Below, one piece after another: positions 12,127 to 37,550 of a stretch of 37,550 nt of DNA. Position numbers and translations under genes: made by a program. Position 1 is the first letter of the stretch, and each line of letters starts with the position of its first letter. This DNA comes from a virus. The stretch covers positions 1 to 37,550 of IMG/VR virus record IMGVR_UViG_3300044641_005274. One strand, written 5' to 3'. The notes beneath the pieces were generated by a model, which worked only from the letters and a program-made list of their open reading frames with translations, ran no database searches and was not told the origin of the DNA.

Positions 12127-12432
12127 ATGGCAAACAGATACAGGGACATAGCAAAATCAACAACTTCGGATGGAGTACAATATACCAATAATCCAATCTA
12201 TCCTGAAATTGCTTTATCTGAAAACGATTTCTATGTAATAACTTCGGAAGGAGATCGGTATGACACTTTGGCCCAACAATTTTACGACGACTACACACTG
12301 TGGTGGATTATAGCTGCAGCTAATACCTCAGAGAGAGCATCCTTGGTTATTACACCAGGAGTTCAACTACGAATCCCTGCAGACAAGGATAGAATAATAC
12401 AAGCATATAACCAGTTTAATACTAGTAGATAA
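12127..12432 (+). CDS. Baseplate wedge protein with LysM-like fold (T4 gp53-like)
   Basis: A 101-residue protein. The core (about 38-85) has YVITSEGDRYDTLAQQFY, then YTLWWIIAAANTSE and ITPGVQLRIP, the signature of LysM-like baseplate proteins such as gp53 (D.LA..FY...LWW.IA..N....P....G..L.IP). In T4 gp53 joins adjacent baseplate wedges. The stop codon overlaps the next gene's ATG (TAATG), coupling it to the large hub-like protein. The family call is good; wedge versus hub placement is inferred. Confidence 0.72.
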   Translation: MANRYRDIAKSTTSDGVQYTNNPIYPEIALSENDFYVITSEGDRYDTLAQQFYDDYTLWWIIAAANTSERASLVITPGVQLRIPADKDRIIQAYNQFNTSR

Positions 12433-15236
12433 TGGCAGGAGGAATAGGAAGCCCAATTAGAGCTGAAGTTGCAACTCAAATGGAAAGGAGGCAAGCTGTA
12501 ATATCTAAGACTCAACAAAGAACCGATAACGACTTATTATACCTTAACGGTAAAACAGGCTGGGTAAGACTATCATCAGGAATCAATACAATAACGCCAG
12601 CAGAAATAGCAAAGCTAAGAGCACAGAATGGTAGGTTTGATATAAAAGGTGATAGTACCGATGCAGGCTACAACATACTACAAGGTGGTGTACTACATCC
12701 AAACAGAGGGGTAAGAGCAGGTATAAACACATCAGGATTCTATGACGAATCTGCAGCATACAATAATAGAAAAGACACTACAGGTATAAGACCTATGCCA
12801 GGGATTACTTCTATGACTGTTAAAACAAAAAATGCTACCGGAACACTGAGAGAAGCTGAGGTAAAATTTACATGCTGGACGTTAGAGGATTTTGAGCTAA
12901 TGGAAAAGCTATACCTACGACCAGGATTTTCAATGCTATTGGAGTGGGGACATTCTATGTATATAGATAATAATGGAACTCTTATAAAAAACATAGAGAC
13001 AGTACCTAACGGATTTTTTGCAAATGGAATTAGTATGGCAGGTGTTCTAAAAAGTATCTCTAGCATTAGACAAAAGAGTAGCTACAACTATGAAGGAATG
13101 ATTGGGTACTGTAAGAATTTCTCTTGGACCTATACACAAGCAGGAGCTTACGAATGTAGTGTTAGTATTACATCAACAGGAGAAATACTAGAATCATTTC
13201 AAGTACGGTTTGATCCACAACTTAGGATAGATCCTGCAGATTTTGAAGACGCAGAATCAGAAACAGGAAAAGAAGAGCGTAAAAGTGTTTTTCATTTCTT
13301 CATTTCAAAAATGGATGAAATAAAAGAAGCTACTTTTACTAAAGCAGCACTTACAGCAAAAACACCAAGCTTAGGAGCAAAACTACAAGACTTTACAGCA
13401 TACTACTCAGCAGTGGAAATTGAAAGATGGGGTTGGGATAAAGATCAGCCAATGACTTGGATTCCTTTGAGAGTTGTCTTAGATGTATTTAACAATTGCA
13501 TTAGTCTAGTAGACGGAACTAAAAGTGAAGGAGATCCAGATAGATCATATATACATTTTAACACAGATTATTCTAAATCATCCAAATTCTTATCAAGTGA
13601 AGAGCACTTCTCAGTAGACCCTACTGTTTGTGTAATTCAGAATAAAGATACAAACGGATATGGAGTTGTAACAGCAATTCACGACAGCATAGCAACTTTA
13701 CCAGATAGCAGTACCTATGATGATGTGCTAAACATATTAGTAACAACAGCTTATTTAAAAAGTACATTAGACCTATCTTTAGACACTGCCGGAAAGGTAG
13801 ACAAAAGTATGTCAGACATAATGCAAACTTTTCTAGATGGTATTAACTCTGCTTTAGGTGGAATTAACGATTTTGCAATGTTACATGATGATGAAGATGG
13901 AGCTGGTACTTGGTACATTGCAGATAGAAATAATACACCTGCAGATACGGTTGTAAAAATGCCTGTTTTTACTTTAGCAGGACTAGGAAGTGTATTTACA
14001 GACATAAGCATTAGTAGTAAAATTTCAAACGAAATAGGAAGCAATATAGCAATTGCAGCACAGGGAACAGCGCAGAATTATTCACAAAATGTAGAAAACA
14101 TACTAAGATGGAATGAGGGAGTAATTGATAGAGTAAGAGTTACTAAAGACACTTCTAATACAGGCAAAGACGGAGTGCAAGCTGTAGAAGATGACAGAGC
14201 AAAACGAGAAGCAAAATGGATAGACACTTTAAAAACTTTCTTTGAGGACTTTAATGGAAGTGGCTATGACGAAGAGGATATGAAGACTGCTAAAACTATG
14301 CATGCTGAATGGACCCTAGAACACGTACTTAAAAAAGGTAGAACACAGAAAAAAGAACCACTTCCAGGAGCTGTACCAGTAGAGCTATCATTTAAGACAA
14401 CTGGTATAGGTGGATTTAGACCCATGGAAGCTTTTAAGATATCAGCAGGAATACTTCCAAGTAAGTACAATGAAAAATTTTGTTATTTGGTAACAGGAGT
14501 GGAACACACTTTGGATACAAACAATGTATGGGAAACTAACATATCAACTCAATTTTTTCCAATACAAGCACCTACAGCAGCGGAAATTGAAAACGCAGGT
14601 AAAAAAGGAACTCCACCACCAGGATCTCCACCAAAAGGTGGCGACGGTGGCGGTGGCGGCGATGGCGCTGAAACAGGAGGAGTTGTATCGGGAGATGTAA
14701 GACCTATCTCTAAAATGAAGCCGTATACTCAAGAAGTGTTGAAAACACATAAAGGATTGGTATTAGTAAGAGAGGCTGCAACAGTAAGAAGAACTATTGG
14801 TTCGTTATACTACAACCAAAAACTTATTGCAGTTACAGTAGAAGATGCTATTAGGGCGAAGAAAGTAAAAAGAGAGACTGCAATACCTGATACACTGTCA
14901 TTGAAAAAGGTTCCGTACAACCTGACTTTAGATACTACTGGAAACAAAAGTATTCAAAAAATTGCAGTTAACTTTAACGATGGAAAAGGAAAAGTAGCTC
15001 CTAGAGTAGGTACAGATAAATCAGCAGTTAATGTAGATGGACCAGGTAACTTAGATTTTGCAGGAATAAGAATCCATGCAGGAAAAAGTGAAGGTTGGTC
15101 AGAGGGATGTCTAATTGTTTCTTCCACTAGAAACAAAGACGGAACTATTGCATTAGATTATCCAAAAGCGACAGAAGTAGTAAGACTTATAAAAAGTAAT
15201 AATTTAAAAACAATTTACGTTGTAAACGATTTTTAA
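12432..15236 (+). CDS. Large baseplate protein with C-terminal DUF5675-like domain
   Basis: A 934-residue protein without signal peptide. Residues 1 to about 720 look like a baseplate hub or spike platform: VKFTCWTLEDFELMEKLYLRPG, FSWTYTQAGAYECSVSI and GTWYIADRNNTP are strand-rich phrases typical of such proteins. A Pro/Gly linker follows (about 718-745). Residues about 760-934 resemble DUF5675: LVLVREAATVRRTIGSLYYN, VTVEDAIR, TAIP-like, and IRIHAGKSEGWSEGCLIV with His882 and Cys893. That H...GC layout recalls L,D-transpeptidase-like active sites, so a peptidoglycan-acting tip replacing gp5 lysozyme is possible (inference). It is translationally coupled to the LysM-like gene. Confidence 0.7.
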   Translation: MAGGIGSPIRAEVATQMERRQAVISKTQQRTDNDLLYLNGKTGWVRLSSGINTITPAEIAKLRAQNGRFDIKGDSTDAGYNILQGGVLHPNRGVRAGINTSGFYDESAAYNNRKDTTGIRPMPGITSMTVKTKNATGTLREAEVKFTCWTLEDFELMEKLYLRPGFSMLLEWGHSMYIDNNGTLIKNIETVPNGFFANGISMAGVLKSISSIRQKSSYNYEGMIGYCKNFSWTYTQAGAYECSVSITSTGEILESFQVRFDPQLRIDPADFEDAESETGKEERKSVFHFFISKMDEIKEATFTKAALTAKTPSLGAKLQDFTAYYSAVEIERWGWDKDQPMTWIPLRVVLDVFNNCISLVDGTKSEGDPDRSYIHFNTDYSKSSKFLSSEEHFSVDPTVCVIQNKDTNGYGVVTAIHDSIATLPDSSTYDDVLNILVTTAYLKSTLDLSLDTAGKVDKSMSDIMQTFLDGINSALGGINDFAMLHDDEDGAGTWYIADRNNTPADTVVKMPVFTLAGLGSVFTDISISSKISNEIGSNIAIAAQGTAQNYSQNVENILRWNEGVIDRVRVTKDTSNTGKDGVQAVEDDRAKREAKWIDTLKTFFEDFNGSGYDEEDMKTAKTMHAEWTLEHVLKKGRTQKKEPLPGAVPVELSFKTTGIGGFRPMEAFKISAGILPSKYNEKFCYLVTGVEHTLDTNNVWETNISTQFFPIQAPTAAEIENAGKKGTPPPGSPPKGGDGGGGGDGAETGGVVSGDVRPISKMKPYTQEVLKTHKGLVLVREAATVRRTIGSLYYNQKLIAVTVEDAIRAKKVKRETAIPDTLSLKKVPYNLTLDTTGNKSIQKIAVNFNDGKGKVAPRVGTDKSAVNVDGPGNLDFAGIRIHAGKSEGWSEGCLIVSSTRNKDGTIALDYPKATEVVRLIKSNNLKTIYVVNDF

Positions 15237-26283: not shown

Positions 26284-27282
26284 ATGAATATACTAGCCAA
26301 AATAGTAAAAATGTTATACCCTCTACTAATACTAGGGGGTATTTTGTCTACACAGAGTCAAACCTTTACCCACTCTGGATATATCTATGGTTCAAACGCA
26401 GTAGGAATACCAGGTGTACAGGTACAGCTATACAGTAGAACCACACCTACTTTAACAGGATTTACAAACCAGCAAAACTATAACGGTCATTCCTATTATA
26501 GATCAACAAGTTCAATGACATGGACAGCTGCAAGACAGGCTTGTGCTAATATGGGAGGATACTTAGTAACCGTAACTACACCTGCTGAAAATAACTTCAT
26601 ATTTAACTTATGGTCTGATGGATGGATAGGATTAACAGATGAAGTAGTGGAAGGTCAATGGAGATGGGTAAATGGAGAGCCTTATACTTGGGGAAACTGG
26701 AACCCTGGTGAACCAAATAACGCTGGTAATGAAGACTATATTCAATTTGTAGGAAATGGGAAATGGAATGATTTACCAAATGCTTCCTTACCTTATGTAT
26801 TAGAATTTGATTATATAGTAACTTTCACACCCTGGACTCTACTAACAACAGCTACAACAGATGCGACAGGAAGGTATGTATTTTCAACACCAACAAATCC
26901 TTCTGTAGAGTACTACATAACATTTACTCCTCCAACTTTACCTACATTACAAATAAGTGATGCTCAAGTTTCAAATAATGTAACATTAGGATCACTAGCT
27001 TTAAAGAGTAGAGATTATTTTAGATTTGATATTAATAATGACGGAAGAGTGACAATATCCGATACTTATTCAATATTTGCTAGAAGAAGAGGATTAATAA
27101 GTTCATTTATAGCATCACCTCCAGATAGTAGAATATTTACAACAACTCAATGGAGTACAATTAATGCAAGTACAGCAAACCTGAAAGCGTCATTTCCAGG
27201 GGTACAGTCAATAACAATAAACAACCCTGTATCGGGTGGAGTTTCTTCTTATTATATCACTAGACTGGGGTATAGCAACTAA
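26284..27282 (+). CDS. Secreted C-type lectin with dockerin-like motif
   Basis: A 332-residue exported protein. Residues 1-26 are a signal peptide. Residues 31-52 (SGYIYGSNAVGIPGVQVQLY) and 183-215 (TTATTDATGRYVFSTP and following) look like the two halves of a carboxypeptidase-regulatory-like beta-sandwich split by a C-type lectin domain at about 66-175. The lectin domain shows WTAARQACANMGGYLV, GWIGLTD, WRWVNGEPYTWGNWNPGEPNN with the mannose-type EPN motif (143-145), and WND (161-163). The usual disulfides are absent: Cys87 is the only Cys. Residues 249-260, DINNDGRVTISD, match a dockerin calcium loop. It starts the exported-protein block; sugar binding and docking are inferred. Confidence 0.8.
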   Translation: MNILAKIVKMLYPLLILGGILSTQSQTFTHSGYIYGSNAVGIPGVQVQLYSRTTPTLTGFTNQQNYNGHSYYRSTSSMTWTAARQACANMGGYLVTVTTPAENNFIFNLWSDGWIGLTDEVVEGQWRWVNGEPYTWGNWNPGEPNNAGNEDYIQFVGNGKWNDLPNASLPYVLEFDYIVTFTPWTLLTTATTDATGRYVFSTPTNPSVEYYITFTPPTLPTLQISDAQVSNNVTLGSLALKSRDYFRFDINNDGRVTISDTYSIFARRRGLISSFIASPPDSRIFTTTQWSTINASTANLKASFPGVQSITINNPVSGGVSSYYITRLGYSN

Positions 27283-27360: not shown

Positions 27361-28452
27361 ATGAAAAAATTACTTTTAGTATTAAGTCTAGTTTTAGTAT
27401 CATTAACAGGATTTGCACAAACTACCGCACCTGATGCTACTAAGCCTTACTTAATATTTGACGCTAGTTACAACCTAGCACCAATTGGAGCAACACCTAC
27501 AAACGTTGCGATTTATTATGATAATGCTGGAGCAACAGCTATCAAAGCAGTACAGTACAGATTTTGGTACGACAAAAACGTATTTGCTTCTCCTACAGTA
27601 ACTTATACTGGAGCTGAAACAAACAATTATTTCCAAACATTAGTAAATGCTACTGAAGGAAATGTAACAGTTACATGGGTTTACACAGGAGCAGATGCTG
27701 CTTTCAATATTGCTGACGGAGCAATGTTTAATGTGGCTTTACCATTTAAAGCAGGTTATACAAACGGAGCTGTAACAGCAATGGCATTTTCAGGAGCAAC
27801 AGCTTACCCAGCTTACGGTACTGTAGCAAATGGAACCGATACATCATTAGGATTACAAAACTACGGAGGTGCATTCACAGAACCGGTATTTAACTACGCT
27901 GCTACATTCTTAAATGACCCAACCAACCCAGCTTCAGACATTCCAGTAATATTACAAAAATCTTCAAACGGAACAGTTTGGACAGATGTAATGACTGTTA
28001 ACACAGCAGCTACAACAGGAGTAGCATCATTTACAACTAACTTAGATCAAAACTACTGGCAGATTAGAGTAAAAGTAGCACCAGGATTAACAGCACCAGG
28101 AGCTTTAGCAACAGCAGATGCAAATATGATTGCTCAAATTGCTACAGGAATACAAGCTCCAACTGGAACTCAATTCTACACTGCTAACCCTAACCAAGCA
28201 AACGGAATTACAATTTCAGATTCATATACAGTATTCTCAAGATTAGCACAAGGTTTAACAACTTACCCAAACAATCCTGATGTATTATTCTTTACAGAAG
28301 CTCAATACACTCAAATTGCTGCAGCAACAACAAGTTTATCAGCAACAATTCCAGGGGTAGCAACATTCCTTTCAGCTAACATTAACAATACAACAGCAGC
28401 CAATTACTATCTATTAGTATTAGGAGACGCAAACGGAACAGGACGTAACTAA
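27361..28452 (+). CDS. Secreted cohesin-like protein with degenerate dockerin-like tail
   Basis: A 363-residue protein with a textbook Bacteroidota signal peptide (KKLLLVLSLVLVSLTGFAQ, 2-20). Residues about 30-165 have a cohesin-like pattern: VAIYYDNAGATAIKAVQYRFWYD, GNVTVTWVY and ADGAMFNVALPFKAG. A second beta-sandwich spans about 172-250. Residues about 252-363 are paralogous to the C-terminus of the upstream lectin protein: NGITISDSYTVFSRLAQG against DGRVTISDTYSIFARRRG, then a similar TEAQYTQI and IPGV run. Here the calcium-binding Asp residues are lost. Its own leader and late-type box suggest strong late expression. Cohesin/dockerin pairing with its neighbours is inference. Confidence 0.72.
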   Translation: MKKLLLVLSLVLVSLTGFAQTTAPDATKPYLIFDASYNLAPIGATPTNVAIYYDNAGATAIKAVQYRFWYDKNVFASPTVTYTGAETNNYFQTLVNATEGNVTVTWVYTGADAAFNIADGAMFNVALPFKAGYTNGAVTAMAFSGATAYPAYGTVANGTDTSLGLQNYGGAFTEPVFNYAATFLNDPTNPASDIPVILQKSSNGTVWTDVMTVNTAATTGVASFTTNLDQNYWQIRVKVAPGLTAPGALATADANMIAQIATGIQAPTGTQFYTANPNQANGITISDSYTVFSRLAQGLTTYPNNPDVLFFTEAQYTQIAAATTSLSATIPGVATFLSANINNTTAANYYLLVLGDANGTGRN

Positions 28453-28453
28453 T

Positions 28454-29185
28454 ATGTTACGCTATATAATCATAGCACTGTTATCAATAAGTTCACTATA
28501 TTCCCAGGTACAATTTCAAGTGCCTGGGATTACGGTGTCTCCGTCTAATACAATAGATCTACCTGTAGCTATTCTAACAAATGGAAATGCAGTAGGGAGT
28601 TTAGAATTTGCTTTAAACTACGATCAAAGCATCCTACAATTCTCAGAAATAATCTTATCTGAAAAAGCACAGACGTGGCTAACCTATACAATGGATACCG
28701 AAAACGGAAAAGTAAGATGGGGAGGATATGATAGAACTCATGGACAGCATACTGTAACAGCTCCAACAGAATTATTTATATTAAAATTTACAGTAATTAA
28801 TACTAACTGGACTCAGACTCCTATAACTGTAGGAAGAAAAACAGCAGGAAATGTACAAGGGTGGGATATCGCTGTAGCTAATACAGATGGATATATCAAC
28901 TATAATAGATATGCAACTCCTTTAGATGAAGATGGAATCCACGGAAAAGTATACCCAGTACCTACGGATGGAATTGTAACAATGGAAATGTCTTTACCAG
29001 TGAGTGGAGATTATGAAATTGTAGTTTACGACATGGGAGGAAATCAACTGAGTATAAGAAAGGAACGTTTTGCAAAAGGACCAAATACTACTTACGGAGA
29101 TCTAACTACTTACGCAAGTGGTAACTATTTATTAAATATAAGAAGTAAGAACTTCGCAAAAACATTTAAAGTAATAAAAAAATAA
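28454..29185 (+). CDS. Secreted cohesin-like protein with T9SS sorting domain
   Basis: A 243-residue protein with signal peptide (1-18, ending LYSQ). Residues about 19-150 form a cohesin-like domain: NTIDLPVAILTNGNAVGSLEF, ALNYDQSILQFSEI, and ELFILKFTV. Residues 165-243 match a type A T9SS sorting domain: KVYPVPTDGIVTMEM, EIVVYDMGGNQLS, ASGNYLLNIRS and a final KTFKVIKK. In Bacteroidota this tag sends proteins through the type IX machinery to the cell surface. It starts 1 nt after the preceding gene's stop. A phage protein with this address would be displayed or released by the infected cell. Confidence 0.8.
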   Translation: MLRYIIIALLSISSLYSQVQFQVPGITVSPSNTIDLPVAILTNGNAVGSLEFALNYDQSILQFSEIILSEKAQTWLTYTMDTENGKVRWGGYDRTHGQHTVTAPTELFILKFTVINTNWTQTPITVGRKTAGNVQGWDIAVANTDGYINYNRYATPLDEDGIHGKVYPVPTDGIVTMEMSLPVSGDYEIVVYDMGGNQLSIRKERFAKGPNTTYGDLTTYASGNYLLNIRSKNFAKTFKVIKK

Positions 29186-29188
29186 GCT

Positions 29189-29515
29189 ATGTCAGAAGAA
29201 GCAAACAACGAAGGTGGATTATCAGGATTGAAAAAAACCTTAATCGGAACTCTAGGAACTATTGTAACAGCAGGAGGAGTATGGTTAACAACTCAACTTG
29301 GTGGAGGTCACTCAGAAGATAAAGAGGAAGTAAAAACAGAACAAGTAGCACCTGCACCCGCAGCCGCACCTGTTGTAATTAACTTACAAAACAATAATAC
29401 TAATCAACAAAAACAATCTGGAGGTACACATACTGTTGTTAAAGAAAGAGTAATTGAAAAAGCAACTCCAGCACCACCACCAGCAGCAAAACAAGAACCA
29501 AAAGAATCTTGGTAA
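29189..29515 (+). CDS. Small single-span membrane protein
   Basis: A 108-residue protein with a Glu/Asn-rich start, one hydrophobic segment at about 17-37 (LIGTLGTIVTAGGVWLTTQL), then a Pro/Ala/Gln-rich disordered tail. There is no signal peptidase site, so it probably stays in the inner membrane. It is 3 nt from both neighbours. A holin-like or assembly role is possible; nothing in the sequence decides this. Confidence 0.6.
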   Translation: MSEEANNEGGLSGLKKTLIGTLGTIVTAGGVWLTTQLGGGHSEDKEEVKTEQVAPAPAAAPVVINLQNNNTNQQKQSGGTHTVVKERVIEKATPAPPPAAKQEPKESW

Positions 29516-29518
29516 TAG

Positions 29519-29788
29519 ATGGAAGAGGCTAAAGGGTTTGCGGATACATTCTTATCTAAACTAAAGGAACAGTCTTTTACTATATTAATTATGGTAGGAG
29601 TAATCTGGTACCAGGGAGTAATGATGGAAGAAAGAGTTGCATATTGGCAAAAAATGTATGAAGAAAAAGAAGCTTACATACAGCAAACAACAAAAGACGA
29701 TAAAACAATTCTATTGGATAGAATAAATTATCTTCAAGAACAAAGAGATAAGTACGTAGAAGATTTACTATTAGAAAAAAATAAATAA
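29519..29788 (+). CDS. Small membrane protein with coiled coil
   Basis: An 89-residue protein with one membrane span at about 19-36 (SFTILIMVGVIWYQGV) followed by a charged coiled coil to the C-terminus (YWQKMYEEKEAYIQQ, LQEQRDKYVEDLL). The gap to the upstream gene is 3 nt and to the downstream 2 nt, so it belongs to the same translational unit. It could be a spanin- or holin-associated protein or a membrane anchor for the next, Ala-rich protein. Function unknown. Confidence 0.6.
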   Translation: MEEAKGFADTFLSKLKEQSFTILIMVGVIWYQGVMMEERVAYWQKMYEEKEAYIQQTTKDDKTILLDRINYLQEQRDKYVEDLLLEKNK

Positions 29789-29790
29789 AA

Positions 29791-30738
29791 ATGGCAGAAG
29801 AGAATATCGGAGTTACAGCAGGTAACGAACAAGCAGGTGCATCAGCAGAAGCACATGCAGGAACAGAAGTAACAGATACATCAGTATCAGCAAATGCAGG
29901 AGTATCAGCCGAGGCTCATGCCAATGTAGAAAATACAACCGAAGTTGTAGAAGGAGTAGATATTAATTCAGAAGCACACGCTACAGCAGAAGCATCAGTA
30001 GAAGCACAAGCACAAGCAGGGTGGGATGGACAAGACGCTTCAGCATCAGCTGGAGTAACAGCTGAAGTAAAAGTAGAGGTAGAAGCTTCAACAGAAGTAG
30101 AAACTGATTACGGAACAGCAGGAGTACATGCCGGAGCATATGCAGAAGCTCATGCAGGAGTAGAAGCAAACGCTTCAATAGGAGAACATGGAGCTGAAGC
30201 TAACGCAGGAGCATCAGTTGGAACATCAGTAGGAGTAGAAGCTGGAGTAACAGCACAATCAGGTGATGTATCAGCAGAAGCTAATGCAGGAGTATCTGTA
30301 GGGGTACAAGCAGGAGCAGAAGTTGGTGGTGGAGCTACTTATGATGATGGGGCTATTACATTAGGAGTTGAAGGTGAATTAGCACTTTTAGTTGGTGTAG
30401 ATGTAGACGCATCAGTAACAATAGATGTATCAGATGAAGTTGAAGCAGCAAAAGAGGCAGCAGCACAAGCAGCTCAAGCAGCAGCAGATTTATTAGCGTC
30501 TCAAGAAGCAGCAGAAGCACAACGTGTAGCAGAAGAAGCAGCTAGAATTGCTCAAGAACAAGCAGCAGCAGCCCAAAGAAGGTTAGAAGAAGAAGCTGCA
30601 GCAGCACAAAGAGAATTAGAAAGACAAGCAAGAGAAGCTCAAGAAGCAATCGATAGAGCTGCAAGAGAAACTCAAGATGCACTTGATAAAGCAGCTAGAG
30701 AAGTAAAAAATGCATTTAATCCAAGAAATTGGTTCTAA
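29791..30738 (+). CDS. Ala-rich repeat protein with TolA-like coiled coil
   Basis: A 315-residue protein without signal peptide. Residues about 1-215 consist of degenerate alternating repeats of the kind SAEAHAGVEANAS and SVGVEAGVTAQ, with small residues every second position, suggesting an extended beta or fibrous structure. Residues about 217-305 are a long Ala/Glu/Arg/Gln helix (AQAAADLLASQEAAEAQR and similar) like TolA or other periplasm-spanning stalks, ending FNPRNWF. There is no Cys. Its stop overlaps the next ATG (TAATG). It may be a stalk or scaffold; composition makes any homology call unreliable. Confidence 0.6.
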   Translation: MAEENIGVTAGNEQAGASAEAHAGTEVTDTSVSANAGVSAEAHANVENTTEVVEGVDINSEAHATAEASVEAQAQAGWDGQDASASAGVTAEVKVEVEASTEVETDYGTAGVHAGAYAEAHAGVEANASIGEHGAEANAGASVGTSVGVEAGVTAQSGDVSAEANAGVSVGVQAGAEVGGGATYDDGAITLGVEGELALLVGVDVDASVTIDVSDEVEAAKEAAAQAAQAAADLLASQEAAEAQRVAEEAARIAQEQAAAAQRRLEEEAAAAQRELERQAREAQEAIDRAARETQDALDKAAREVKNAFNPRNWF

Positions 30739-31451
30739 TGATCAGAAAAATACTTTACATATTATTTCTACTATTCAGCATAATAGGCTCTGCTCAAAAG
30801 ATAGGGTCTGTTAAAACTGAGGAATACAAAGCTGATTTTGAAAAAAAACAATCATTGGATGTGGTATCTGATTATGCTGGGGATATTATCATTCCTATTC
30901 AGATTCTTAAAATTGGTATCAACGAAGAGTTGTACGAAATGTACCCAGAACTAAAAGATAAAAGAGTTGGTTTAGGGGTATCAAATATTGTACTAGAATA
31001 TTTAGAATCTACAAACAGATTTAAGTTTACAGAAGACCGAGAAGAAATAAAACAAAAAATGATTGCCCAGCACATAGCTTCTGCTAAGGGAATATCAGAA
31101 AATAAAATAGAAGTTAAAGGAAATGTTATATTAGCAAAGTATTTTGTTTATATAGAAGTCTATGACTTCAGCATAGGTGAGGATGAAGAAGTTTCAACCT
31201 CTGGAGCTGAGATAAGACAAAAAACAATATTAGGGTTACAAGTAAGATTTGTGGATGCACAAAGCGGTGAAATAATTACTGGATCAGGATCCGGTGAGGC
31301 AGTTACAGTGAAGAAGGCAAACTTATTAGATGGACTCGACGATATTAAATTCAATCAATCAACAATCGGAGTATCTACCAAAAAGTCATTAGAAACTGCT
31401 TCTTCAAGAGTCGTATCAAAAATGATTAAAAAGGGGATATTTCCGAACTAA
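30738..31451 (+). CDS. CsgG-family (curli secretion-like) exported protein
   Basis: A 237-residue protein; ATG at 30738 is preferred because it overlaps the previous stop (TAATG) and gives a clean signal peptide (IRKILYILFLLFSIIGSAQ). The mature part resembles CsgG/HfaB: VGLGVSNIVLEYLESTNRFKF about 76-96, ENKIEVKGNVILAKYFVYIEVYDF, and LQVRFVDAQSGEIITGSGSGEA. CsgG is an outer-membrane nonamer that exports curli subunits. This protein has no Cys at all, so the lipid anchor of CsgG is missing. It is followed without a gap by a barrel-like protein. CsgG-like genes are known in some marine T4-like phages, with no settled role. Confidence 0.65.
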   Translation: MIRKILYILFLLFSIIGSAQKIGSVKTEEYKADFEKKQSLDVVSDYAGDIIIPIQILKIGINEELYEMYPELKDKRVGLGVSNIVLEYLESTNRFKFTEDREEIKQKMIAQHIASAKGISENKIEVKGNVILAKYFVYIEVYDFSIGEDEEVSTSGAEIRQKTILGLQVRFVDAQSGEIITGSGSGEAVTVKKANLLDGLDDIKFNQSTIGVSTKKSLETASSRVVSKMIKKGIFPN

Positions 31452-32884
31452 TGAAAAAATGGGCTTGTATACTTTTTTACTTTTTCTTTCTGCAGAGCTT
31501 TGCACAGTACAGCTATACCTATACAGATCCATGTACACTTCAATTAAAGAGTGTATTCGTACCTGCTGGAGGTGGTGTAGTAGTAAACTACTTTAATAAC
31601 CAGAATACATTTAATTCAAATGACTTCTCTTCAGGAGCATTTGACAACTGGATAGCTCTAGTATCTCAACAAAATTCAAACTCACCTTGCCAATCTGTAA
31701 CCACAGCTATTGTAAATAGCATAACAAATGTAACAGTTGCAAACACACTAACTGTTGTTACAAATGTAATATCAGTAACAAACGTAGCCCAATCTATAGC
31801 AACCATAGGAGGATCTATGGGAAGTTCTATGACAGCTACAGCCGGAGGCGTAACAAACTCTTCACAAAGTGAAGGAGGTAGTACTAACCAAAATTCAAAA
31901 GATGAAAAAAAATCAGATTCAAATACACCTACAGGAACGAATTCAGGAACTACTGGAACAGGCTCAACAGGTAACCAAAGTCAAGGAGGCCAAACCAATC
32001 CTAGTTCTTCTGGAGGAACACCTTCACAACCTTCATCAGGAACACCTCAGCAAGGAGGAGAAACTACTAGTCCAAATCAACCAACTTCAACAGGAGGTTC
32101 TACGTCTGAGTCATCTGTAGAAGGATCAAGTGGTGGAGGGAGTAACTTAGCTAACTCTTTATCAAACTCCGTAGACGGAGGATCAGCTGATGGAGGAAGT
32201 TCATCAGGAGGTGGAGGAACATCAGGTGGAGGTAAAAAATCAAATACTGCTGCTAAAAGTGTAGGAAGTTTAATTGCCTCAGGAGATATAGTAGCTATTG
32301 CCAATACTGATCAAACTCAGAACTTTAGATTTGTAGGAAGTATAACTCATGCCAATACTAGAGGAACTAGAATTAAAGGAGTACTATTCAATTTTACCTC
32401 AGGAGTTAATAACCTAAATGTTACTTTTTATAAATCTTGGATTAATAAATCTAAAAAATTAAATACAGTAGGTGCTCAATCTCTTATGATGGATTTTGAT
32501 AAAAACTTCTTTAGTACAACTACAGTATTAGAATCATATAAAGTGAGTAGTAAACTAACAGGAATGTTTGGGGTTAATTTTACAGCAGGTAAAATGGGAG
32601 AAAGAGCTTTATTAAATCTATCTGCTGTAGCTGGAGGACATAGTAGTTTCAAATTAAGTGATAGAGTTAGTACTAGCGTACTTGTATTAGGAGTGTATTC
32701 TCCATTCACTCAGTTCTACGAAGGTAAGTGGTGGGATGCAGGTATCATAATAGTACCATTTAATTCATGGGATTTAAAAATAACTAAGACATTTAAGTTT
32801 AACGTAAGTTTTACAGGAGTATACGAAGCAGGTAAAGAATTTTTAAATTATCAAATATTAACAGGTGGTAAATTAACATTTTAA
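31451..32884 (+). CDS. Putative outer-membrane beta-barrel with Ser/Gly linker
   Basis: A 477-residue protein with signal peptide (KKWACILFYFFFLQSFAQ). Residues about 20-130 are Val/Thr/Asn-rich and include NSITNVTVANTLTVVTNV repeats. Residues about 135-275 are low-complexity Ser/Gly/Thr/Gln/Asn. From about 280 to the end, alternating aromatic and polar strands (FRFVGSITHANTRGTRIKG, FKFNVSFTGVYEAG) suggest a small barrel, ending in a C-terminal Phe as outer-membrane proteins do. It is TAATG-coupled to the CsgG-like gene, pointing to joint action at the outer membrane. No specific family recognised. Confidence 0.6.
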   Translation: MKKWACILFYFFFLQSFAQYSYTYTDPCTLQLKSVFVPAGGGVVVNYFNNQNTFNSNDFSSGAFDNWIALVSQQNSNSPCQSVTTAIVNSITNVTVANTLTVVTNVISVTNVAQSIATIGGSMGSSMTATAGGVTNSSQSEGGSTNQNSKDEKKSDSNTPTGTNSGTTGTGSTGNQSQGGQTNPSSSGGTPSQPSSGTPQQGGETTSPNQPTSTGGSTSESSVEGSSGGGSNLANSLSNSVDGGSADGGSSSGGGGTSGGGKKSNTAAKSVGSLIASGDIVAIANTDQTQNFRFVGSITHANTRGTRIKGVLFNFTSGVNNLNVTFYKSWINKSKKLNTVGAQSLMMDFDKNFFSTTTVLESYKVSSKLTGMFGVNFTAGKMGERALLNLSAVAGGHSSFKLSDRVSTSVLVLGVYSPFTQFYEGKWWDAGIIIVPFNSWDLKITKTFKFNVSFTGVYEAGKEFLNYQILTGGKLTF

Positions 32885-32886
32885 TT

Positions 32887-32955
32887 ATGAAAAAATTAAA
32901 TCAATTATTTGAAAGGTTTTACGATAAAGTATCAAATTTCCTTTTTGGAAGATAA
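32887..32955 (+). CDS. Tiny amphipathic peptide
   Basis: A 22-codon frame (MKKLNQLFERFYDKVSNFLFGR is 22 residues; key features are Lys2-3, Phe8, Phe11, Phe18, Phe20, Arg22) that begins 2 nt after the barrel gene and ends 14 nt before the next. It would form an amphipathic helix with Phe/Leu on one face. Position in a tightly packed operon supports translation; there is no other evidence. Confidence 0.4.
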   Translation: MKKLNQLFERFYDKVSNFLFGR

Positions 32956-32969
32956 AACAGTTTAGTATT

Positions 32970-33425
32970 ATGAAAAAATTATTTTTATTATTAGCATTAG
33001 TATTTTTAGTATCAGCTGATACAGCTACTAAGGAATGTTATAAAGTAACAAAAGTGTCTTCTCAAGTTGAAGCACCGGAAATGAAAAAAGAAAGAGTTGT
33101 ATTTGGTATTAAACAAATGACTGAAGAAATTCTATCTGAAAAGCACGACATATGCGAAGATGGAACTCCAGTTGAAGTAGAAGTATTATCAGTTGAAGCA
33201 CCTTCCACAAATACCTCTTTAGGACCATTCTCTAAAACTAAAAAAATTACTATTGTAAAATTAAGACTTATAATAGGAAAAGAAGAGTACTGGGGTCAAG
33301 GAGAAGCAAACGTAACAGTTCAATCGACATTCTTAGATTTGAACGACGATAATCTACCATTCAACAAGACTGCATTCTCAGGAGCAGTTAAAAAAGCTTT
33401 AGTAGAAGCTGTTGGAGAAATGTAG
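32970..33425 (+). CDS. Small secreted protein, unknown
   Basis: A 151-residue protein with signal peptide (KKLFLLLALVFLVSA) and no lipobox. The mature part has two Cys (in KECYKV and HDICED) that could form a disulfide, and a strand-rich end KLRLIIGKEEYWGQGEANVTV. It ends the block with the CsgG-like and barrel genes, so a periplasmic accessory role for them is plausible but unproven. The next promoter overlaps its 3' end. Confidence 0.6.
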   Translation: MKKLFLLLALVFLVSADTATKECYKVTKVSSQVEAPEMKKERVVFGIKQMTEEILSEKHDICEDGTPVEVEVLSVEAPSTNTSLGPFSKTKKITIVKLRLIIGKEEYWGQGEANVTVQSTFLDLNDDNLPFNKTAFSGAVKKALVEAVGEM

Positions 33426-36569: not shown

Positions 36570-36653
36570 GGAAGGCATCCGGCTGGATCAGGAGCCACTC
36601 TTGAAAAGTGGTAGCAGGTAATACTGTTGTGGGTTCGAGTCCCACGTCTTCCT
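36570..36653 (+). tRNA. tRNA-Ser (anticodon TGA)
   Basis: Acceptor GGAAGGC/GTCTTCC, D-stem TCC/GGA, anticodon stem CCACT/AGTGG with loop CTTGAAA (TGA), a long variable stem (AGCAG/CTGTT) expected for class II tRNA, and T-arm GTGGG TTCGAGT CCCAC. The discriminator would be T, unusual for Ser (normally G). Confidence 0.8.
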
Positions 36654-36659
36654 CAATAT

Positions 36660-36731
36660 TGGCTTATAGTGTAACGGTTAGCACAAAACACTTTGACTGT
36701 TTTAGTCTAGGTTCGAATCCTAGTAAGCCAA
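36660..36731 (+). tRNA. tRNA-Gln (anticodon TTG)
   Basis: Acceptor TGGCTTA/TAAGCCA, D-stem GTGT/GCAC, anticodon stem AAACA/TGTTT with loop CTTTGAC (TTG), T-arm CTAGG TTCGAAT CCTAG, discriminator A, followed by CA. It reads CAA codons. Confidence 0.92.
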
Positions 36732-36740
36732 CAATAATTT

Positions 36741-36816
36741 CTGGTAGTAGAGGAGTCCGGTTTATCTCGCTCGCCTTGGACGCGAGAGCACGCAAGTTCG
36801 AATCTTGCCTATCAGA
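36741..36816 (+). tRNA. tRNA-Pro (anticodon TGG)
   Basis: Acceptor CTGGTAG/CTATCAG (one wobble), D-stem GAG/CTC, anticodon stem CTCGC/GCGAG with loop CTTGGAC (TGG), T-arm GCAAG TTCGAAT CTTGC, discriminator A followed by CA. Confidence 0.92.
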
Positions 36817-36822
36817 CAAATT

Positions 36823-36895
36823 GCCTTCGAAGCTCATGTGGACGGGCACCGGGCTTTTAACTCGGGGGTAGCTGGTTCGAGGCCAGCCGGGGGTA
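36823..36895 (+). tRNA. tRNA-Lys (anticodon TTT)
   Basis: D-stem GCTC/GGGC, anticodon stem CCGGG/CTCGG with loop CTTTTAA (TTT), T-arm GCTGG TTCGAGG CCAGC. The acceptor GCCTTCG/CGGGGGT pairs fully only with three G-U wobbles, so it is weak for a functional tRNA. Discriminator A, then CA. Confidence 0.8.
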
Positions 36896-36939
36896 CAAAA
36901 GTTTTTACGGGACTGTTTCTTTAAAAAACGGCTCCACCA

Positions 36940-37010
36940 GCCTCGTTGGCGTAATGGCAGCGTATTTGTTTTACATGCAAAGGGCGATAGTTCGATTCTA
37001 TCACGAGGTA
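36940..37010 (+). tRNA. tRNA-Val (anticodon TAC)
   Basis: Acceptor GCCTCGT/ACGAGGT (one wobble), D-stem GCGT/GCGT with wobbles, anticodon stem TTTGT/GCAAA with loop TTTACAT (TAC), T-arm GATAG TTCGATT CTATC, discriminator A, then CA. The 44-nt gap before it holds a GTTTTT/AAAAAAC inverted repeat. Confidence 0.85.
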
Positions 37011-37018
37011 CAAAAATT

Positions 37019-37099
37019 GGGATGCTTCAGTCACTGGTGTGATAAGCGGTCTGTAAAATCGTTCTGTAAGAAGGTGTGGTTCGATTCCACAGTATCCCA
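37019..37099 (+). tRNA. tRNA-Tyr (anticodon GTA)
   Basis: Acceptor GGGATGC/GTATCCC, anticodon stem GCGGT/ATCGT with loop CTGTAAA (GTA), a short variable stem (TCT/AGA) as in bacterial Tyr class II tRNA, T-arm TGTGG TTCGATT CCACA, discriminator A. The D-arm is weak (TCA/TGA). Confidence 0.8.
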
Positions 37100-37162
37100 C
37101 AGAATAGTAGAGAAGGGTAGTCCGTTCCCCTACAACCAGTATACAGGTAAGCGGACGCAATT

Positions 37163-37235
37163 GGACCTTTTGTATAGCTGGTGCGTACGCTAGTCTGAAG
37201 AACTAGAGGAGCAGGTTCGATTCCTGCAGGGTCCA
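37163..37235 (+). tRNA. tRNA-Phe (anticodon GAA)
   Basis: Acceptor GGACCTT/AGGGTCC, D-stem GTA/TAC, anticodon stem CTAGT/ACTAG with loop CTGAAGA (GAA), T-arm GCAGG TTCGATT CCTGC, discriminator A, then CA. The 63-nt gap before it holds GTCCG/CGGAC (37120-37124/37152-37156) but no tRNA. Confidence 0.92.
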
Positions 37236-37240
37236 CAACC

Positions 37241-37312
37241 GGGTTTGTCGTATAAAGGTTATTACGGATGACTGTTAATCATCTTATGGAGGTTCGATTC
37301 CTCCCAGGCCCG
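37241..37312 (+). tRNA. tRNA-Asn (anticodon GTT)
   Basis: Acceptor GGGTTTG/CAGGCCC (two wobbles), D-stem GTA/TAC, anticodon stem GATGA/TCATC with loop CTGTTAA (GTT), T-arm GGAGG TTCGATT CCTCC, discriminator G as usual for Asn, then CA. Confidence 0.92.
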
Positions 37313-37321
37313 CAATTAAAT

Positions 37322-37465
37322 GCTCGTATAACAGGTAGTGTGGTAGCTCCCCAACCTGAAGTGGGATAACGTGACGGTCAATCGTAAAAGCTCAAGGTAC
37401 GTAACAAGTAGCAGTTGGTTGGAGTAAGTGACTTATCGAGGTTGGTTCGATTCCAGCTATGAGCA
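37322..37465 (+). tRNA. Oversized tRNA-like locus
   Basis: GCTCGTA (37322-37328) can pair with TATGAGC (37458-37464), 8 bp if T37321 and A37465 are included, and GTTGG TTCGATT CCAGC is a good T-arm. The 144-nt span is twice a normal tRNA. A D-arm-like GTAT AACAGGTA GTGT lies at 37326-37341, overlapping the acceptor. No anticodon arm is convincing in either a 144-nt or a 76-nt fold (from 37390). It may be an interrupted tRNA or a fusion of two decayed copies. Confidence 0.35.
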
Positions 37466-37472
37466 CAAAAAT

Positions 37473-37546
37473 AGGTAATTAGCTCAATTGGTTAGAGCAC
37501 TCGCCTGATACGTGAGAGGTTATAGGTTCGATTCCTATATTACCTA
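37473..37546 (+). tRNA. tRNA-Ile (anticodon GAT)
   Basis: Acceptor AGGTAAT/ATTACCT, D-stem GCTC/GAGC with GG in the loop, anticodon stem CTCGC/GTGAG with loop CTGATAC (GAT), T-arm ATAGG TTCGATT CCTAT, discriminator A, then CA. This is the last locus in the window; the array may continue beyond it. Confidence 0.94.
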
Positions 37547-37550
37547 CAAA

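Follow-up and report, generated by a model that had tools for sequence, protein, structure and literature searches.

A 37,550-nucleotide stretch of virus DNA (IMG/VR record IMGVR_UViG_3300044641_005274, positions 1 to 37,550; analysed whole and referred to as the window) carries three genes for putative envelope proteins, P1, P2 and P4, downstream of genes for a lectin, an adaptor and a cohesin anchor with a type IX secretion system (T9SS) sorting tail. These envelope genes and the lectin chain very probably form one unit, and the module is real, conserved and undescribed in the literature searched. We tentatively suggest that the P1-P2-P4 set exports the lectin across the outer membrane or anchors it there. 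The main genes of the unit in the window are:

26284..27282, + strand: lectin, with a signal peptide, a C-type lectin domain, a dockerin-like module and no T9SS tail
27361..28452, + strand: adaptor, with a putative cohesin-like and a dockerin-like module
28454..29185, + strand: anchor, with a cohesin domain and a T9SS type A sorting tail
29189..29515, + strand: P0, a predicted single-transmembrane protein with a Pro/Ala-rich tail and terminal Trp
30738..31451, + strand: P1, a predicted secreted CsgG-fold protein of 237 amino acids (aa) with no Cys
31451..32884, + strand: P2, with a signal peptide, an N-domain bearing Cys28/Cys80, a helix (81-121), a disordered arm and a predicted 12-strand barrel (273-475)
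32970..33425, + strand: P4, a predicted secreted, shortened paralogue of P1 of 151 aa with a signal peptide and Cys23/Cys62

Conservation and spread of the unit

By P1, the nearest named relative, at 89% identity, is Immutovirus immuto (Flavobacterium phage vB_FspM_immuto_2-6A), a phage of 160,410 bases that infects Flavobacterium sp. LMO8. Its counterparts of P1, P2 and P4 by position are gp017-gp019, each annotated 'hypothetical protein', and the genes upstream of gp017 bear the names of lectin C-type and cohesin domain-containing proteins. Viral contigs were searched with pattern scans, which returned 119 relatives of P1, 260 of P2, 264 of P4 and 245 of the P1 of a distant member, and the best 80 relatives per scan were kept. 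Together with the window, the immuto stretch and two genome loci, these gave 312 loci, which were de-replicated to 127 groups having no identical 400-base stretch in common. The 104 groups with P1, P2 and P4 served as the reference set for all neighbourhood counts.

In all 104 loci, the genes stand in the order P1-P2-P4 on a single strand, the conserved synteny that the preliminary description of this DNA, made from its letters and open reading frames (ORFs), had suggested looking for. In 74 of the loci, P2 abuts or overlaps P1 (≤5 nt). Among the other 23 of the 127 groups, 22 were judged from coordinates to be cut by contig ends; in the last (L082), on a Flavobacterium metagenome-assembled genome (MAG) contig, P4 lies ahead of P1 and P2 is reduced to its start by the contig edge.

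To describe the surroundings, genes within 6 kb of the 104 loci were joined into families by single linkage. The lectin, adaptor and anchor genes fell into one census family, which was split with domain hidden Markov models (HMMs) built from the loci themselves, with drift possible. Within 6 kb, a dockerin-like module was found in 100 loci, a cohesin in 98, a T9SS tail in 98 and a C-type lectin in 61; the four loci lacking a dockerin-like module have at most 1.5 kb before P1. Each of the 98 loci has exactly one T9SS-tail gene, always upstream of P1 and on the same strand, at a median gap of 409 bases (maximum 1633). One further locus (L016) has two dockerin-like genes and cohesin genes with no T9SS-tail gene, and the remaining five without this gene are cut at or near P1. 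The P0 family is present in 91/104 loci, with its N-terminus and terminal Trp conserved in the alignment.

A reverse search, with the window cohesin and lectin as queries, recovered 97 loci in 56 groups, 43 of which have all seven parts; four groups without P2 sit on contigs of 4.2-8.7 kb. Forward and reverse searches thus agree that P1 and the lectin chain belong to a single unit, and the suspected link to the neighbouring lectin and cohesin genes holds (98/104 loci forward, 43/56 groups in reverse). The description of the envelope genes as a 'self-contained' set fails, since the lectin, adaptor and anchor genes and, in 91/104 loci, P0 belong to the unit as well.

The set is nearly virus-only. 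A scan for close relatives in one genome each of 84,980 species yielded two loci, L081 and L082, both on MAG contigs, and of 199 Flavobacterium genomes just one, that of L082, has P2, located at the contig edge. Among 36 long contigs (100-435 kb, near-duplicates included), 35 have P1, at 60-95% identity, and the one miss (G231) has P2 at the contig end. The window tail sheath was found in 26 of these 36 contigs at 27-88% identity, often over partial length, and was not found in the other 10; the contigs may be fragments. Median pairwise identity among the 104 loci is 0.67 for P1, 0.33 for P2 and 0.39 for P4. The same module also occurs on very large phage contigs, including one of 434,509 bases (L284) and others over 200 kb.

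Envelope proteins and the lectin chain

In the window, the reading frames of P1, P2, P4 and a 22-aa ORF are open as first described, P1 contains no Cys, and P1 and P2 are coupled by TAATG, a junction that also links P1 to the gene before it. A missing lipid anchor is not a general trait of P1 relatives: 51/104 have no Cys, and 19/104 have a lipobox-like Cys.

An AlphaFold2 model of P1 (32 sequences; pLDDT 68.6, pTM 0.60) has CsgG as its closest PDB structure (Foldseek E 4.9e-8; VIA Z 12.4 over 160 residues, rmsd 3.3), followed by VIA Z scores of 11.0 for the LptE-like Cj1090c, 9.4 for PelC, 9.2 for LptE and 8.6 for FlgT. By sequence, window P1 has no Pfam match, CsgG (PF03783) included, and no NCBIfam match, and no PDB sequence matched the P1 family profile at E up to 10. 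Among 32 P1 relatives, four match Pfam CsgG (best E 8.5e-5). In hhalign comparisons, the P1 family aligned to three non-curli CsgG-family proteins (L101, L346 and L347; probability 86%, E 5e-6), as against 0.5% and E 0.12 for 14 Flavobacterium curli CsgGs. The label 'CsgG-family' is thus remote by sequence and clear by fold match. The preliminary description had held that a missing CsgG profile match, or a soluble and disordered partner, would speak against it; the Pfam scan of the window protein taken by itself gives the former, and the fold and family evidence is to the contrary.

The earlier suggestion of a CsgG pore formed by P1 fared less well. Hairpin 1 has 22 residues in P1 (read in 101/104 loci) and 28 in Flavobacterium curli CsgG (n = 14), with charged fractions of 0.31 and 0.17, respectively; hairpin 2 has about 24-25 residues (range 23-26; read in 77/104) against 34 in curli CsgG, with slightly different end points. 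(A first reading of hairpin 2 as comparable to curli came from a loose pattern, read in 76/104 with run-overs of 8-189 residues, and was replaced by the tighter one.) Given the profile comparison and the shorter, more charged hairpins, P1, though of predicted CsgG fold, probably forms no curli-type pore. Curli CsgG membership was rejected on the Pfam scan, the PDB-sequence search, hhalign, and hairpin length and charge. Pfam scans for CsgF gave no match, and a CsgF-like N-terminus of P2 was discarded, the hhalign match to 14 Flavobacterium CsgFs (36%) spanning the signal peptide alone. The curlin-type repeat has the motif QxGx[GN]NxA, and none was found in the 1883 neighbour genes of the 104 loci. 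Curli CsgG or CsgF of the true type is present, by strong matches, in 14/61 Flavobacterium genomes.

P4, described before as a secreted protein with a Cys pair, does have a signal peptide and Cys23/Cys62, the former invariant in 31 alignment rows. Its kinship to P1 had been missed. The two were treated as separate families and compared with hhalign, since iteration drew P4 into the P1 family, and they are homologous by this comparison (96.2%, E 2.5e-9; with 104 sequences each, 96.7%, E 3.8e-10). With family HMMs at E up to 10, the P1 model reached 1 of 74 P4s, and 75 of 81 P1s were reached with the P4 model. P4 lacks the region matching P1 residues ~100-135. The unit would therefore contain two CsgG-fold proteins.

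P2 is a predicted outer-membrane barrel. The signal peptide, the Ser/Gly arm and the terminal Phe of the preliminary description are all present: residues 122-270 are 77% G/S/T/N/Q, and the last residue is Phe. Of the 104 homologues, 60 end in Leu, 33 in Phe, 9 in Gln and 2 in Ile, and the polar arm, delimited by a composition rule, varies from 77 to 449 residues; Cys28 and Cys80 are invariant in 28 alignment rows. In the AlphaFold2 model (28 sequences; mean pLDDT 58.3, pTM 0.47, barrel blocks mostly 71-83), the disordered arm covers about 115-270 (~150 residues). The best 50 VIA rows are all outer-membrane barrels, including NalP (Z 19.9, 229 aligned residues, rmsd 3.6), CymA (17.4), KdgM (15.2), FapF (14.8) and OmpG. 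A coiled coil in the helix was looked for and gave no heptad signal.

In the lectin chain, the lectin scores 62.7 bits against Pfam Lectin_C (cut-off 22.6) and the anchor 36.4 bits against Cohesin (PF00963; cut-off 24.1), and the anchor's sorting tail matches Por_Secre_tail (PF18962; 35.9, cut-off 27.0) and TIGR04183 (38.8, cut-off 23). The dockerin-like module of the lectin reaches 13.0 bits against Dockerin_1 (PF00404; cut-off 22.9, E 0.12) and E 4e-50 against the dockerin-like family HMM. The adaptor has no Pfam match, and a direct phmmer comparison with the anchor cohesin gives E 0.07; its putative cohesin identity comes from the family HMM (E 5e-27), which also assigns a dockerin-like module (E 9e-43). 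Many relatives have adaptor and anchor joined in one protein of ~630 aa that contains two cohesins, an internal dockerin-like module and a tail, and Pfam placed cohesin and tail above cut-off in 4/4 scanned.

Dockerin-like genes with neither cohesin nor T9SS tail number 99/197, about one per locus, and the heads of the chain vary among C-type lectin, LamG-like and GEVED. A hydrophobic N-terminal core is present in 191/197 dockerin-like genes and an F-hand-like calcium loop in 151/197, in strict form in 80. A type I dockerin would score above the Pfam cut-off and have two calcium loops; with a subthreshold match and a calcium-loop-like motif, the module here is best called dockerin-like only. 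Cellulosomes follow the logic of a cohesin anchor, a cohesin-dockerin adaptor and a dockerin-bearing binding protein, and the lectin chain appears to have the same arrangement. It differs from cohesin-dockerin scaffolds in its heads, which are lectin, LamG-like or GEVED and not cellulases, and in a dockerin-like module with one recognisable calcium loop that scores below the Pfam cut-off.

Possible roles of the envelope set

P1/P4 homology, the fold models, the strict synteny and the domain make-up of the lectin chain are directly supported, and from them we infer a working model. P1, P2 and P4, usually with P0, would be the envelope half of a phage unit whose other half is an exported surface-lectin chain. 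P1 and P4, with the fold of CsgG, LptE and PelC, would be periplasmic and form a collar beneath the P2 barrel, which would sit in the outer membrane with its long, flexible N-terminal arm. The lectin needs a way out or a ride, because it has a Sec signal but no T9SS tail; the P1/P4-P2 complex may either pass the lectin-dockerin protein through the outer membrane of the infected cell or retain it on that membrane. At the surface the lectin would bind to the cohesin that the host T9SS has placed there, either directly or with the adaptor in between, and might serve to hold neighbouring cells or to shut out other phages. A bolder version, in which P0-P1-P2-P4 would be a phage-specific trans-envelope protein export system, in make-up unlike any numbered secretion system, with the lectin as cargo docking on T9SS-delivered cohesin, seems somewhat unlikely; so does its corollary that one virus combines a hijacked and its own secretion route for a surface adhesin.

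The working mode could resemble that of PelBC, a CsgG-fold ring under a barrel, or FapF. In the former, a ring of twelve PelC lies on or under the PelB barrel (PMC12141448). The likeness lies in a CsgG-fold periplasmic protein beside an outer-membrane barrel protein, and P1 has both a PelC/LptE-like predicted fold and an adjacent predicted barrel gene; membership of that family is not claimed, as no sequence relation was established. PelC is a lipoprotein and PelB has a 16-strand barrel with tetratricopeptide repeats (PMC12141448), whereas window P1 is free of Cys and P2, which lacks such repeats, has 12 predicted strands. FapF, the Pseudomonas functional-amyloid exporter, consists of a periplasmic helix, a disordered linker and a 12-strand barrel (PMC5557850), the same succession as predicted for P2. 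It has no detectable sequence relation to P2, its heptad signal and plug are not features of P2 as far as seen, and the part of PMC5557850 at hand gives it no CsgG-fold partner.

Several points weigh against an exporter or anchor. The structure models cover P1 and P2 as single chains, with no complex among them. A permutation test over 104 homologues gave no significant in-out strand alternation in the P2 barrel (492 of 5000 permutations at or above the observed value), so the barrel-like end first described stands on the 12-strand model and the barrel matches but not on alternation. The helix 81-121 has no heptad (3.5-residue) periodicity, and the two results together weaken the FapF comparison. 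A barrel of 12 strands leaves little room for a folded lectin. Since T9SS cargo travels in folded form, the lectin could exit bound to cohesin and need no outlet of its own. P0 has no role in the model, and the best Dockerin_1 score among scanned relatives, 19.1 bits, is below the cut-off. Synteny is no proof of joint function, given the possible shared descent of these phages, and an endolysin also lies near the module in 54/104 loci.

That last linkage bears on the main rival reading, an outer-membrane lysis step, also raised in the preliminary description, in which P0 in the inner membrane, P1/P4 in the periplasm and P2 in the outer membrane would bridge the envelope in spanin-like fashion and open the outer membrane once holin and endolysin have acted. 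The endolysin families in question (GH19 or phrog_33083-like) lie within 6 kb. GH19 is at most 5 kb from P2 in 17 of 31 long contigs with a strong match (near-duplicates included), as against about 2 of 31 expected by chance in contigs of ~100-435 kb by a rough estimate; a two-transmembrane protein is present in 50/104 loci and a Pfam holin in 9/104, the topology of P0 and P2 is compatible with a spanin, and the authors of the Melnitz paper suggest a lysis role for phage CsgGF (PMC9004378). Yet GH19 is 26-154 kb distant in the other 14 long contigs, cultured immuto (28 kb) among them, and within the immuto-like clade the endolysin is 0.8 kb away in two contigs and at least 28 kb away in five. 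Window P1 also lacks a spanin feature, a lipoprotein partner, and long-lived lectin display needs no lysis protein. The lysis linkage is real but facultative, whereas the lectin linkage is nearly invariant, which favours a surface role and leaves both the bridging and its timing after holin and endolysin unlikely. Alternatively, the set might be an anchor only, with the host T9SS exporting the cohesin-bound lectin and P2 with P1/P4 holding the chain on the outer membrane, perhaps via the P2 arm. Such an arrangement would fit the strict synteny with a T9SS-tailed cohesin, the type A tail and the widely varying arm (77-449 residues), but the arm would lie inside if both barrel ends are periplasmic. 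Type A tails are, moreover, normally tied to the surface by host sortase, and a further anchor would therefore be superfluous. Sortase attachment of these tails is described for P. gingivalis (PMC8545088), and we regard an anchor-only role as rather improbable.

A further candidate is a channel for uptake or leakage, in which P2 would raise outer-membrane permeability during infection and feed the phage with P1/P4 as a gate. Uptake has been suggested for pelagiphage CsgGF (PMC7029224), and the P2 barrel also resembles uptake porins (CymA, KdgM and OmpG). Such a channel would leave the lock to the lectin chain, the long arm and the Cys-paired N-domain unexplained, and is quite improbable. Least credible is a curli-type CsgG nonamer, with P1 spanning the outer membrane and P2 as a CsgF-like partner: CsgG is the best fold match of P1, and csgGF is carried by pelagimyophages (PMC7029224) and Melnitz (PMC9004378), but P1 matches non-curli and not curli profiles, its hairpins are shorter and the first more charged, and neither a CsgF match beyond the signal peptide nor a curlin-like repeat was found.

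Phage csgGF genes are nonetheless among the closest known parallels to the proposed lectin outlet or anchor. In pelagimyophages, CsgGF was interpreted as an uptake pore or a means of 'sibling capture' (PMC7029224); in pelagiphages it occurs alongside curlin-like fibres, FecR and a cyclase (PMC9599517); and in the OM43 phage Melnitz it was seen as a lysis timer (PMC9004378). The csgGF genes of pelagimyophages, pelagipodophages and Melnitz resemble the present genes in being a phage-borne CsgG-fold gene beside a partner, absent from most hosts and likewise suspected of surface adhesion, uptake or lysis; they differ in that CsgG and CsgF are genuine there, descend from alphaproteobacteria and are accompanied by curlin-like fibre genes. 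The present unit has instead a non-curli CsgG relative, a second predicted CsgG-fold protein, a putative barrel protein and a T9SS/cohesin lectin chain. The parallel would be a phage that adds adhesive surface proteins together with their outlet. Cryophage, a Bacteroidetes phage with proteins bearing T9SS type A tails, has variable single cargo genes (endoglucanase, GH39 and PA14; PMC7468147); the present unit, by contrast, is conserved and has one fixed cargo, a cohesin, beside lectins and an envelope set. A term search in the main text of the paper on large Bacteroidota 'moraphages' (PMC12619734) found no lectin, cohesin or curli. The wider literature search, with most subscription papers and all preprints outside its scope, gave no description of the module and no paper on cohesin or lectin in Flavobacterium phages.

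Neighbouring genes and wider meaning

Two small genes complete the region around the envelope set in the window:

32887..32955, + strand: 22-aa ORF, encoding an amphipathic-looking peptide
29519..29788, + strand: 89-aa gene between P0 and P1, encoding a predicted single-transmembrane, coiled-coil-like protein

The tiny peptide, already pointed out in the preliminary description, recurs as a similar ORF of the same length in 9 of 10 loci with a P2-P4 gap of 40-200 nt. The 89-aa family occurs in 8/104 loci, is local to the immuto-like clade and matches a PHROG holin at E 0.0041. Positions 29791-30738 encode a 315-aa protein without a signal peptide, with Ala/His/Glu repeats followed by an Ala/Glu/Arg-rich helix and the end NPRNWF; its family is present in 6/104 loci. 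Elsewhere near the module are a conserved ~120-aa protein with two transmembrane segments (L161 4522-4884 and relatives; 50/104 loci), often beside or between P1 and P2 and holin-like by look with no firm family match; an HExxH-like secreted protein of ~150 aa (for example L182 2446-2904, - strand; 53/104), of which a scanned member had no Pfam match; two further secreted barrel-like families, also with no Pfam match (L307 10993-11730, 14/104; L270 9106-9912, 8/104); and a secreted nuclease within 6 kb in 17/104 loci. Away from the unit, the window has nine tRNA genes in a row at 36570-37547 (Ser, Gln, Pro, Lys, Val, Tyr, Phe, Asn and Ile) and, at 12432-15236, a large protein of a baseplate-like region with a C-terminal DUF5675 (E 2.2e-8).

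Extracellular structures on living hosts are not often attributed to phages. Hundreds of large phages, which apparently infect Bacteroidota, carry the unit, and it is more conserved than their tail sheath; in the one cultured relative its annotations go no further than hypothetical, lectin and cohesin proteins. If the lectin is indeed displayed, infected flavobacteria would change in stickiness, and particle colonisation, phage encounters and superinfection would be affected. Beside the pelagiphage curli genes, this would be a second, independent case of a phage CsgG-fold envelope set with surface adhesins, and because this second case includes the cultured Immutovirus immuto on Flavobacterium sp. 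LMO8, the purpose of such sets becomes testable.

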